A stretch of DNA of 49,233 nt from Anaerolineae bacterium (GTDB lineage Bacteria > Chloroflexota > Anaerolineae > J102). The position numbers were made by a program, and so were the translations under genes. Under the pieces are notes generated by a model. The model was not told where the DNA came from. It searched no databases and saw only the letters and a program-made list of their open reading frames with translations. Positions 3,799-40,592 of this stretch are shown one piece after another (the first letter of the stretch is position 1; each line of letters opens with the position of its first letter). The DNA lies in assembly GCA_026991225.1 (NCBI GenBank), contig JALXCB010000122.1, positions 1 through 49,233 of the forward strand, written 5' to 3'.

Positions 3799-4154
3799 CG
3801 CTGGATGGAAGGCGCTGTAGACCTCGGAGGTCTGGGAGACCTCCGAAGTCTTTGGCCTCGCACAGCCAGATAAACGTCCAAATCGCATTGGCTTGCAACG
3901 GTGTTTGCAAGATTCACCCATTGCAAAACGATGCAGCGAGTGCGGTAGAAATTCCGTCGGAGCCCGACACAAGACCTCGGAGGCTGATTGACTGACAAAA
4001 CGCGTTTTGGTCTGCTGTGGTCGTCTATGCTGTCGACTGAAGTCGTCCCATTCCAGGCCTGCGGCCAGTGGACGGCCTCCGCCGTCCATGTTCATGATGG
4101 AAATCAGGTCGACGAAGGTCGACCACAGGCGCGAAGCGCCTAAAGAGCCCGAGT
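3799..4154. repeat. Gene-free gap with a chained-hairpin array
   Basis: No coding region is convincing here. Near 3819-3851 a palindrome made of ACCTCGGAGGTCT words appears, and a close relative recurs at 32259-32291. From about 4032 to 4170 six short hairpins follow one another (arms TCGACTGAAGTCG, GGCCTGCGGCC, GACGGCCTCCGCCGTC, GGTCGACGAAGGTCGACC, GGCGCGAAGCGCC, CCGAGTTTACTCGG). This is the same order as the core of the element at 31603-31799, read on the other strand. The terminal repeats of that element are not visible here. Confidence 0.75.
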
Positions 4155-4574
4155 TTACTCGGTGAATACGGTCGGAAAGGAAAGCCTCAAGAGCACCATC
4201 CCCGCATCGGGAAACGCCTTCACCTTGAGCACCCTCTCAACCCTTATCTCAAGGCCCGTTTCCTCCTGCGCTTCTCGTTTCAAAGCCAGAAAGGGATCTT
4301 CACCCCGTTCCACAAATCCGGCCAGCAGCGCCCACTTGCCCTTCCCGGGCTCTTTCGCCCTTTTTAGCAGCAAAATGCGTGAGCCAAACGTCACAATCGC
4401 CAATACTGCCAGCTTGGGATCAAGATAAAATACGAATTTGCAGGCGTGGCACACCAATTGCGGCTGCCCGGGAATATCGATATCTTCCAGGGTGAATGGC
4501 GCGCCGCAACGAGGGCAGTATTTCAGATCGGCTTTATCGTATTGCCATTGATAGGCGGCGGGCGATCCTCTCAT
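4155..4574 (-). CDS. Nudix hydrolase with N-terminal zinc ribbon, probably C-terminally truncated
   Basis: The protein carries a zinc ribbon (CPRCG, then CHAC) followed by a complete Nudix box, G(x5)E(x7)REAQEETGL, so it should hydrolyse a nucleoside diphosphate derivative with a divalent metal. I start it at MRGSPAAYQW (139 aa), because the in-frame upstream extension to 4667 is translated repeat DNA. Only about 30 residues follow the Nudix box. The last codons and the TAA stop come from a hairpin repeat that recurs at 31603-31799, so the original C-terminus seems to have been replaced. On the other side an inverted-repeat element begins 12 bp upstream of the ATG and no Shine-Dalgarno is visible. 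The gene may be decaying. The fold assignment is firm; the substrate and activity are unknown. Confidence 0.7.
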   Translation of the reverse strand: MRGSPAAYQWQYDKADLKYCPRCGAPFTLEDIDIPGQPQLVCHACKFVFYLDPKLAVLAIVTFGSRILLLKRAKEPGKGKWALLAGFVERGEDPFLALKREAQEETGLEIRVERVLKVKAFPDAGMVLLRLSFPTVFTE

Positions 4575-4586
4575 TAGCCGTTTTTG

Positions 4587-4730
4587 GTAACTGCTAAGGT
4601 AGTTGGCCCCAATCGCCCCTTTTTTGCCACGAAGACACGAAGGAAACGAAGGCGCGAAGTCATTCAAAAAAGATTTTATCCGTGTTTCCTCGTATCCGTG
4701 TCGAATGAACAGGGCTACGTTAGCAGTTAC
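4587..4730. mobile_element. MITE-like element, family 1 (GTAACT ends), no target duplication seen
   Basis: The 144-bp unit starts GTAACTGCTAAGGTAG and ends CTACGTTAGCAGTTAC, which are near-perfect inverted ends. The interior has the GCCACGAAGACACGAAGG words typical of the family. The flanking octamers (CGTTTTTG and TTCCCAAA) differ, so this copy is old, rearranged or end-degraded. It lies just upstream of the Nudix gene at 4155-4574. Confidence 0.75.
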
Positions 4731-7032: not shown

Positions 7033-7201
7033 TTGAGTCAGTAATCAGTGATCAGGCGGCCCGAGCGATAGCTCGCCGATACGGATGAAAATGAGAACGC
7101 TGATAACGCGGATGCGACGCTGATTTTCACAGATTTTTCTTTTTATCTGCGCTCATCCGTTTCAATCTGCGTCATCTGCGTTCCCTAATCCAAAGCAGCC
7201 G
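7033..7201. repeat. Intergenic palindromic repeat, uninterrupted copy (family C)
   Basis: The stretch contains the hairpin CGAGCGATAGCTCG, then words of the type GATGAAAATGAGAACGC and CAGATTTTTCTTTTTATCTGCG. The sequence CACAGATTTTTCTTTTTATC is the empty-site counterpart of 40341-40530, where the same repeat is split by a family 1 element. Confidence 0.75.
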
Positions 7202-11883: not shown

Positions 11884-12210
11884 GGCGGTTCGATAGAGGA
11901 TGAGAGGCAAGAGTGGAATGGGTGCAAGCCAATCTGGCGCATGACGCCGTCATTGTGAAACGTGATGCGCAATGCGTCACAACTTTACGGATTACGCATG
12001 ACGCATTCCGCTCGTTGCAGACTCGCCCAACGTGGACTTTAGTGCCTTATCAATGGAATTCTTGCTCACTGGGCAAGAAAATGCCTCACGCAAAGACGCA
12101 GAGCCGCAAAGGGAAAAAAGAAGCAAAGAAAAGCTTAGCGCCTTGGCGACTTTGCGCGAGATCAGCTTTTTGGTTCCGGCTTGTCCAGGTTAGGTTATTT
12201 TGTATACGAA
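11884..12210. repeat. Gap holding two palindromic repeats (families E and D)
   Basis: At 11950-12045 GTGAAACGTGATGCGCAATGC faces GGATTACGCATGACGCATTC, followed by the recurrent tail TTGCAGACTCGCCCAACG. At 12085-12170 CACGCAAAGACGCAGAGCCG faces CGCCTTGGCGACTTTGCGCG. The string TGCAAGCCAATCTGGCGC near 11925 recurs near 37440. I see no gene, promoter or T-tract terminator, although the gap lies inside the transporter locus. Confidence 0.7.
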
Positions 12211-15942: not shown

Positions 15943-16095
15943 GTAACTACTAAGGTCTCGCCACCGCTTTTTGCCACGAAGATACGAAGAAAAACGAAGG
16001 CACGAAGTTTTTCCTTTATTTTTCCTTCGTGTCTTCGAAAAACTTCGAGCCTTCGTGGCTTTTCGAGGCCTGAAATCGAGTACGTTAGTAGTTAC
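15943..16095 (+). mobile_element. MITE-like element, family 1, 153 bp, 8-bp target duplication ACGCATTT
   Basis: The unit begins GTAACTACTAAGG and ends GTACGTTAGTAGTTAC. It is flanked on both sides by ACGCATTT (15935-15942 and 16096-16103). The interior is almost a single hairpin of CACGAAG words. By direct comparison it is identical, base for base, to the reverse complement of 29701-29853. No reading frame inside encodes a transposase. Confidence 0.93.
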
Positions 16096-18759: not shown

Positions 18760-19120
18760 TGTTCAGAAAGCAGGCGATACGAGCGATAGCTCGCCGATAC
18801 GGACAAAAATCTCACGCAAAGTCGCCAAGGCGCAAAGGGGAAAGGTAACTGCTAACGTACTCGATTTCAGGCCACAAGAAGCCACGAAGGCTCGAAGTTT
18901 TTCGAAGACACGAAGGGGAAAATAAAGAAAAATACGTCGTGCCTTCGTTTTCTTCGTGTCTTCGTGGCAAAAAGCGGCGGTGCGACCTTAGCAGTTACGG
19001 GGAAAGAAGCGTTTGCAGGTGGCAAGTCAGCTTGCGCAGCTCTACTTGCTACCTGCCACCTGCGACTTGCAAACTTGTCTTGGCGACTCTGCGCCCTGGC
19101 GTGAGATCGATTTTCAAAGC
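18760..19120. repeat. Nested repeat cluster: family D palindrome split by a family 1 element
   Basis: An outer palindrome starts CACGCAAAGTCGCCAAGGCG (about 18810) and closes with CTTGGCGACTCTGCGCCCTG (about 19078). A family 1 element (18845-18998) interrupts it. A further hairpin (GCAGGTGGCAAGTCAG facing TACCTGCCACCTGCGACTTG, 19015-19075) fills its loop. A family C hairpin end lies at 18775-18800. There is no gene here. Confidence 0.8.
18845..18998 (-). mobile_element. MITE-like element, family 1, 154 bp, 8-bp target duplication GGGGAAAG
   Basis: The ends are GTAACTGCTAACGTAC and GACCTTAGCAGTTAC. It is flanked by perfect GGGGAAAG octamers (18837-18844 and 18999-19006). The host sequence is another repeat, so this is a nested, later insertion. 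Orientation is opposite to the copy at 15943. Confidence 0.92.
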
Positions 19121-19125
19121 AATTT

Positions 19126-20454: not shown

Positions 20455-20840
20455 AATCTGTAAATCGGGAAACCGGTAGACCTGTAGACCGGGCGGGGGA
20501 GTGACATGATCCGGTTTCCCGGTTTCCTGGTCTACTGCTTTGAAAATAGAGCCACGAAGGCGCGAAGGAAAGCGAAGGCACGAAGAAAAAAGACTGAAGA
20601 CTAAAGATTATCTGCGGAAATCAGCGTTGCATCTGCGTCATCTGCGTTCTCATTTTCATCAGTATCGGCGCGCCGCCGCGCGTGGTGCCTGCTATGAAAA
20701 TAGGATTCGGGAACGCAGATGATAAAGAAAAAATCTGCGAAAATCATCTGCGAAAATCTGCGATGCGAAGCATCCGTGTCATCTGCGTTCTCATTTTCCT
20801 CGGTATCGGCGCGCGGTCGCTCGTGTCGCCTGTATTCATA
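20455..20840. repeat. Mosaic of palindromic repeats (families F and C) with an 89-bp duplicated block
   Basis: A family F hairpin (AAACCGGTAGACCTGTAGACCG facing CGGTTTCCTGGTCTAC) lies at 20460-20535. Bases 20534-20622 are identical to 26330-26418. Two head-to-tail family C units follow (to about 20690 and to about 20835). They have words such as AAAATCTGCGAAAATCATC and the junction motif TGAAAATAG. From 20840 to 21066 the sequence looks unique and should hold the control region of the next gene; TACAAT at about 20934 is one possible -10. Confidence 0.75.
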
Positions 20841-23598: not shown

Positions 23599-23778
23599 AG
23601 GAATTCCTGTTCCGAAAATAGAATTTTAGGGAACGCAGATGACGCAGATTGAAACGGATGAACGCAGATAAAAAATCTGTGAAAATCATCCGCGAAAATC
23701 AGCGTCGCATCCGCGTTATCAGCGTTCTCATTTTGGTCGGTATCAGCGCTGGCGCGCCAGCCGTTGGACTGCACGCTC
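23599..23778. repeat. Family C palindromic repeat
   Basis: Starting with GAAAATAGAATTTTAGGG, words AACGCAGATGACGCAGATTG and AAAATCTGTGAAAATCATCC face GCATCCGCGTTATCAGCG. It resembles the unit at 7033-7201 read on the other strand. Confidence 0.7.
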
Positions 23779-26532: not shown

Positions 26533-26748
26533 GTAACTACTAACGTAGCGAGGTCGAAAACCACGAAGACACGACGACACGAAGGCGCGAAGGGTAATAG
26601 TGGCAGGTGGCAGGTAGCAAGTTGCAGGTGAAAATTCGCTGTCAGAAGGACTTGCCACTTGCGACTGACAAACCTGCATTGTCTTCGTCCCTTCGAGCCT
26701 TCGTGGCAAGGCATTTTCGATGCCGAACCAGGCTACCTTAGCAGTTAC
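26533..26748. mobile_element. Enlarged family 1 MITE-like element (216 bp), no target duplication
   Basis: The ends are GTAACTACTAACGTAGC and GGCTACCTTAGCAGTTAC. In the middle a second palindrome (GGCAGGTGGCAGGTAGCAAG facing CTTGCCACTTGCGACTGACA) has been inserted; it is related to 19015-19075. Flanking octamers CAGTAATC and TCATGACC do not match. Confidence 0.7.
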
Positions 26749-29497: not shown

Positions 29498-30011
<514 letters not shown>

Positions 30012-40084: not shown

Positions 40085-40356
40085 CTGCGGGCTGTTTTGG
40101 AGTTGTACGAAGACATGGGACGTCCCATTCCTCCTGCTTTGCAACGTGATCTTGATGAAACGCCTTTCCTACTGGAAACCGCAGTTGCTATATGAGATAT
40201 GCTGAGGTCGCTCGAAAGCTCAGGGCATTGGGGGTGTGAGGAATTGCATAGCAGGCACCACGAGCGATAGCTCGCCGATACGGATGAAAATGAGAACGCA
40301 GATGACATGGATGCTTCGCATCGCAGATTTCCGCAGATGATTTTTACAGATTTTTT

Positions 40357-40510
40357 GTAACTACTAAGGTGTCGCCACCACTTTTTGCCACGAAGACACG
40401 AAGAAAAGCGAAGGCACGACGTATTTTTCTTTATTTTTCCTTCGTGTCTTCGAAAAACTTCGAGCCTTCGTGGCTTTTGGCGGCCTAAAGTCAAGTACGT
40501 CAGCAGTTAC
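40357..40510 (+). mobile_element. MITE-like element, family 1, 154 bp, nested in a family C repeat; 8-bp duplication GATTTTTT
   Basis: GATTTTTT flanks both ends (40349-40356 and 40511-40518). The ends are GTAACTACTAAGGTG and TACGTCAGCAGTTAC. The host repeat, CAGATTTTTCTTTTTATCTG, is seen uninterrupted at about 7137. Confidence 0.93.
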
Positions 40511-40592
40511 GATTTTTTCTTTTTATCTGCGTTCATCCGTTTCAATCTGCGTCATCTGCGTTCCCTAATCCTATTTTCAAAGCAGAGCTTGC

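Follow-up and report, generated by a model that had tools for sequence, protein, structure and literature searches.

The stack of repeats at positions 18769–19122 of an Anaerolineae bacterium contig (JALXCB010000122.1) was very probably built by successive insertions of non-autonomous mobile elements, the order of which is local to each site. The whole 49,233-nt stretch of DNA that was analysed is referred to here as the window. In the history that we propose, a CACGCAAAG-core cassette, its loop already holding a GCARGT palindrome, would have come between two genes. A 154-bp MITE with IS66-type ends later jumped into the spacer of this composite, duplicating 8 bp, as the bases on both sides of the element show. 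A MITE of the same family likewise jumped into a CGCAGAT-core unit at 40357, and a MITE of another subfamily would have hit the same base in another copy of that unit on contig C135. The cassette units are mobile as well: at locus L347, one has inserted into the end sequence of a family-1 MITE, directly behind a CTGCT. An IS66 transposase acting on GTAACT ends is the likely mover of the MITEs, and an HUH-type single-strand enzyme is our best guess for that of the cassettes. Nested sites give ordered insertion events, with layering in both directions. The draft genome comprises 201 contigs, of which the stretches around matches were read.

Layers of the stack at 18769–19122

The original prediction had read three levels of nesting at 18810–19115, and the arrangement of a CACGCAAAG palindrome, a family-1 element in its spacer and a GCARGT palindrome was confirmed. 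The family-1 element does split the CACGCAAAG composite with a duplication, but it sits in the spacer that separates the outer left arm from the inner palindrome and not in the inner loop. The third palindrome, which had been described as filling the remaining loop, is present inside the outer arms but is not private to this site, since a GCARGT palindrome was found inside a CACGCAAAG palindrome at 15 other places, 13 of them with both outer arms complete.

The whole stack is carried by a cassette-like unit on the minus strand (18769–19122), which was delimited from the end consensus and has the ends CTGCT (18769–18773) and TTGCT (19118–19122), both read on the minus strand. From left to right, it contains the right-end hairpin of the unit ('hairpin A', 18789–18810, minus strand), the left arm of the CACGCAAAG palindrome (CTCACGCAAAGTCGCCAAGGCGCAAAG, 18813–18837, plus strand), the left copy of the 8-bp target duplication GGGGAAAG (18837–18844, plus strand), the 154-bp family-1 element (18845–18998, minus strand), the right copy of GGGGAAAG (18999–19006, plus strand), the inner GCARGT-word palindrome (19011–19074, plus strand, GTTTGCAGGTGGCAAG...CTTGCAAAC) and the right arm of the CACGCAAAG palindrome (19080–19106, minus strand). 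The family-1 element, an IS66-type MITE with a CACGAAG palindrome inside, starts with GTAACTGCTAACGTA and ends with TTAGCAGTTAC. Eight bases match exactly at a given place by chance once in 65,536 cases, and the duplications at 18845 and 40357 are each not attributable to chance.

Removing the family-1 element and one GGGGAAAG copy from 18810–19115 in silico left 144 nt, which aligned with uninterrupted siblings (L044, L047, L050 and L280) from position 1–3 to position 134–135 at ~80% and with E near 1e-32; a failure of the restored sequence to align, the outcome that was to count against the nesting, did not occur. Before restoration, unbroken alignment of the stretch with any other locus covered only 107 of 306 nt.

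The unit is situated beside the start, not the end, of an alanine-dehydrogenase-like gene, and the stack is absent from the available parts of the orthologous gap in all seven genus relatives having the flanking gene. These two facts, together with the sharp unit ends and the lack of any Rfam family matching the window, argue against the palindromes being selected structures, such as terminators or RNA hairpins, that family 1 hits as intergenic filler; this explanation would agree with the occurrence of the CACGCAAAG arm in many phyla and with the lack of loop targeting by family 1 (both below), but we regard it as unlikely. The contig of the relative G005 stops inside the orthologous gap, and in the available part of the gap there is a unit whose core is a different one. 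Empty-site borders could not be fixed in the relatives because the intergenic DNA is too diverged (the flanking gene has 78–84% identity). The unit at 23606 was plainly absent in G003. L078, L324 and L091 were also joined as possible empty sites, without a clean joint being obtained.

A recurrent composite of two palindromes

Genome-wide, 63 CACGCAAAG arms were found against 0 in the control. Besides the GCARGT-containing palindromes, 13 distinct CACGCAAAG palindromes had a short empty loop, and the remaining arms had no recognisable second arm within 480 bp, had a loose-pattern match only, or were themselves the second arm of a palindrome already included. These loop classes come from manual reading, as an automatic loose second-arm pattern gave false partners. 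A MITE layer in a complete CACGCAAAG–GCARGT composite was seen once only, at the 18769–19122 locus itself (L051). Given the 15 other places, the two palindrome layers are a composite that recurs in the genome, with family 1 as a late guest at 18845. Within the genus, the CACGCAAAG arm occurs in two different container types. The second container is represented in the window by the CACGCAAAG palindrome at 12075–12170, with flanks TTGCTCACTGGGCAAGAAAA and TTTTTGGTTCCGGCTTG, and is abundant in the relative G001.

Interrupted CGCAGAT-core units

A cassette-like unit with a CGCAGAT core on the minus strand (40250–40585) is interrupted by a family-1 element on the plus strand (40357–40510) with the duplication GATTTTTT at 40349–40356 and 40511–40518. 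The claim that this element splits a unit of what had been named family C was therefore borne out, with GATTTTTT on both sides and CGCAGAT words around it. The proposed empty version at 7033–7201 is indeed an uninterrupted CGCAGAT-core unit (7043–7201, minus strand), but a distant relative (81% over 158 nt), and two other loci were closer: the restored sequence of 40242–40584 (181 nt) was 94% identical to L343 over 179 nt and to L093 over 174 nt. Excision thus gave a unit that aligns with its family members here as well, and the contrary outcome was again absent.

On contig C135 (L027), the base used at 40357 is also the point at which a MITE of another subfamily interrupts a CGCAGAT unit. The pair can be told apart at 6 sites, and MITEs identical to the C135 one occur elsewhere, so that separate jumps into the same spot are favoured; at C135, however, an independent insertion could be imitated by gene conversion following copying. 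These same-base MITEs of different subfamilies bear on whether composites were copied as finished stacks, in which case the loci would not record separate jumps. The CACGCAAAG–GCARGT pair itself probably does spread as one, judging from its 15 other places, but for the stacks as a whole such copying is quite unlikely, since it accounts neither for the different subfamilies nor for the single occurrence of the MITE layer in a complete composite.

Order of insertion

The original prediction had placed word palindromes first and family 1 later. This order stood at 18845 and 40357, where it is shown by the duplications and the restored alignments, but not as a general one. In L347 (contig C190), a complete CGCAGAT-core unit splits a family-1 element that is still flanked by its duplication ATTTACAG; the unit is inserted directly after CTGCT in the family-1 element's own end sequence. 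With CTGCT on both sides of this unit, a duplicated CTGCT is indistinguishable from an element-borne one. Among the DNA stretches read around matches, L347 was the one case of a unit in a MITE with an intact duplication, and this one fossil event gives both the borders and the target of a cassette-like element. Family 1 was also found inside family 1 (L018 and L008), and a GCARGT palindrome lies in the loop of the family-1 element at 26533–26748.

A one-way history, in which the word palindromes are an old layer and family 1 is a later invader of them all, would explain 18845 and 40357 in the window and the C135 site, but it conflicts with the unit inside a family-1 element at L347 and with the GCARGT palindrome inside family 1 at 26533–26748, and we consider it very unlikely. 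The reverse nesting at L347 instead means that each site has its own order of insertion and that 'palindromes first' does not hold genome-wide.

Plan and borders of the cassette-like units

The containers at 18769–19122 and 40250–40585 have their ends in common with many other units and follow a common plan of CTGYT..GAAAATA, an interchangeable palindrome core, a hairpin and CTGYT. From the DNA stretches read around matches, 142 distinct sites were obtained, a left end not being found for every one; typical ends are CTGYTNN-GAAAATA on the left and, on the right, ATTTTCRTCNGTATCGGCG followed by the hairpin and CTGYT. Aligned borders were sharp, with random sequence before the C of CTG and decay after TGYT; the search pattern for the left ends tolerated two mismatches, and this influences the conserved part and not the random flank. 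The cores included CACGCAAAG, CGCAGAT, CACGGAT, a CACGAAG/CGCAGAT chimera, AAACCGG, ATCAGTGATCAG and others.

Units are arranged head to tail, with 55 of 118 right ends directly followed by another left end and neighbouring hairpins within 330 bp pointing in the same direction in 33 of 34 cases. In the window, two units lie head to tail on the plus strand (20533–20834) with one shared junction at 20688–20703. In the first of them, a CACGAAG left arm is combined with a CGCAGAT right arm, and this chimera was also seen at many other loci.

Hairpin A was examined in 71 sequences that make up one 50-nt length class among 113 extracted sites, and was paired in 94.2% of cells. In 18 sequences, one pair was C-G in place of A-T, with both sides changed. 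The number of hairpin cells changed on both sides (19) was above that in all 500 shuffles, whereas pairs changed on both sides were only 2 of 8, a number reached by 123 of the 500 shuffles.

The unit junction pattern was present in 17 of 100 related genomes, several of them with a single match that may be due to chance, and reached up to 230 junctions in G005 and 25 in G012, which belongs to another genus. A four-unit array in G012 had the same left end with a different core word, GACGAT. Junctions and CACGCAAAG arms were distributed differently, with 230 junctions and one CACGCAAAG match in G005 and 0 junctions and 89 CACGCAAAG matches in G001.

We tentatively propose, at somewhat less than even chances, that the units form a class of gene-less cassettes that insert after CTGYT, join into arrays with one junction and swap their cores within constant ends (CTGYT-NN-GAAAATA on one side, the covarying hairpin and CTGYT on the other), and that the word palindromes are an independent second layer. 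In the literature searched, which was largely without subscription papers, no description of the cassette system or its word strings was found, and the word-string search returned one match, which was unrelated. If cores truly swap within fixed ends, the capture and trade of non-coding DNA by small mobile elements becomes testable, and the recurrence of the same short palindrome words in distant phyla would also be open to test.

Comparison with known systems

Integron gene cassettes form head-to-tail arrays in which neighbouring units share a single site with a hairpin beside it, and are characterised by a GTT core, the integrase IntI and attC. The cassette-like units resemble them in the head-to-tail array, the one shared site and the hairpin beside it, but differ in being gene-less in the units read, in lying at many scattered loci and in having CTGYT instead of GTT.

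The HUH-type guess was based on the hairpin at the end, the lack of terminal inverted repeats and the short fixed target. A non-autonomous IS200/IS605-like (HUH) element, which inserts just 3' of a short fixed target with no further duplication, would fit the sharp CTGYT borders, the insertion at L347 and the paired hairpin with a compensatory change. The right-border CTGCT, however, may have arisen by duplication or belong to the element, and a hairpin was seen at one end only. Five Y1_Tnp matches were found in the genome, none with matching ends in the 2.3–3.3 kb around each, and thus none is recognisable as the partner of hairpin A. The guess is weakened by this absence of unit ends flanking the Y1 genes and by the two possible origins, target or element, of the second CTGCT. 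Within these stretches, only L100 of the five loci has a cassette unit, more than 1 kb away, and most adjoin other hairpin repeats. As in REP-transposase pairs, most of these Y1 genes (L096–L100) stand beside dense hairpin repeats of their own (for example GGTCGCC...GGCGACC and CCGAGTTTACTCGG), and similar repeats were seen at 4104–4162 in the window.

Among described systems, the REP superfamilies and REPINs provide the closest accounts of the cassette-like units, as far as the available parts of the two sources reach. The available part of PMC3733652 gives the REP superfamilies GTAG and CGTC and notes REPs inside other palindromes. Like the REPs described there, the units have a short, imperfect hairpin that is intergenic and carries a tag at the foot, but the tag is GCAG or ACAG (the right ends CTGYT read on the other strand) and not GTAG or CGTC, and the hairpin forms just one end of a longer unit whose far end is conserved and whose core changes. 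In addition, no Y1 transposase gene flanked by these hairpins was found at the five Y1 loci. REPINs, which the available part of PMC3116915 presents as inverted REP doublets, are likewise small non-autonomous hairpin elements in high copy, but the neighbouring hairpins of the cassette units, with their nearly uniform direction, are not inverted doublets.

The CACGCAAAG arm in other phyla

At least 119 stretches of genome contigs (L129–L247) contain an exact match to the 27-base CACGCAAAG arm pattern, in which 24 bases are fixed; by our own estimate, its chance expectation in the collection is far below one. By record titles, the matches listed came from about a dozen phyla, including Cyanobacteria, Planctomycetota, Verrucomicrobiota, Acidobacteriota, Bacteroidota, spirochaetes and others, with several proteobacterial classes also represented. 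An inverted second arm was present within 220 bp in 44 of the 119 matches listed, versus a same-direction arm in 5 of 119. The arm often formed a palindrome, with a loop that differed each time. In viral contigs, 37 stretches matched the arm, and of the 36 loci that could be tested, 5 had an inverted second arm, which does not make viruses an obvious reservoir of CACGCAAAG.

Family 1 as an IS66-type MITE

The window contains six family-1 copies. In addition to those at 18845 and 40357, copies lie at 15943–16095 (plus strand, duplication ACGCATTT) and 29701–29853 (minus strand, duplication GATCATTC, inside a BrnT-like gene), a diverged copy at 4587–4730 (plus strand) has no detected duplication, and the copy at 26533–26748 (plus strand), with the GCARGT palindrome in its own loop, has no detected 8-bp duplication. 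The BrnT-like gene split at 29701–29853 is a toxin-antitoxin gene, and each of its pieces alone matches PF04365. Among the 37 copies read, an exact 8-bp duplication was found in 31, one copy had 7 of 8 bases, and five had none (L007, L009, L024 and the window copies at 4587 and 26533). The end pattern GTAACTRCTAASGTA, with up to 1 mismatch, occurred 515 times genome-wide against 4 times for the reversed control, corresponding, at two ends per element, to ~250 elements in the 3.87-Mb genome. No match to the family-1 MITE was found on plasmids by blastn against 72,556 records.

We also considered whether family 1 targets palindrome loops, using 32 restored sites (the five copies without duplication excluded), 1280 random positions and 447 nearby positions. 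Loop-target scores of 14 or more were obtained at 4 of the 32 restored sites versus 4.4% of random and 7.6% of nearby positions (Mann-Whitney p = 0.87 and 0.69), and targeting was rejected.

Judged by its sequence, family 1 is a MITE of a resident IS66-like element. On contig C180, a broken gene for an IS66 transposase (L032; PF03050, E = 1.6e-33, also zf-IS66) carries the family-1 end CTACCTTAGTAGTTAC just upstream of its start codon, one end only being seen in this broken copy. In the relative G001, an open IS66 frame of 468 aa lies at C116. According to the available part of PMC11946415, IS66 has 8-bp duplications and an inverted repeat starting with GTAAGCG. Family-1 ends read GTAACT[AG]CTAA[CG]GTA and have only GTAA in common with that start; since the 8-bp duplication fits IS66 while the ends match only in GTAA, family 1 is assigned to a resident IS66-like element and not to classical IS66. 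Family 1 resembles IS66-derived MITEs in its GTAA ends, its 8-bp duplication, its lack of coding capacity and the agreement of its ends with the resident IS66-like transposase copy, but differs from the IS66 of that source in having GTAACT instead of GTAAGCG, and its interior is a CACGAAG word palindrome that is common to other repeats. A second IS66-like end, GTAACTATACAG, was seen after a CACGCAAAG arm in L041 near position 1501, and the same end also lies upstream of an IS66 gene in the relative G001.
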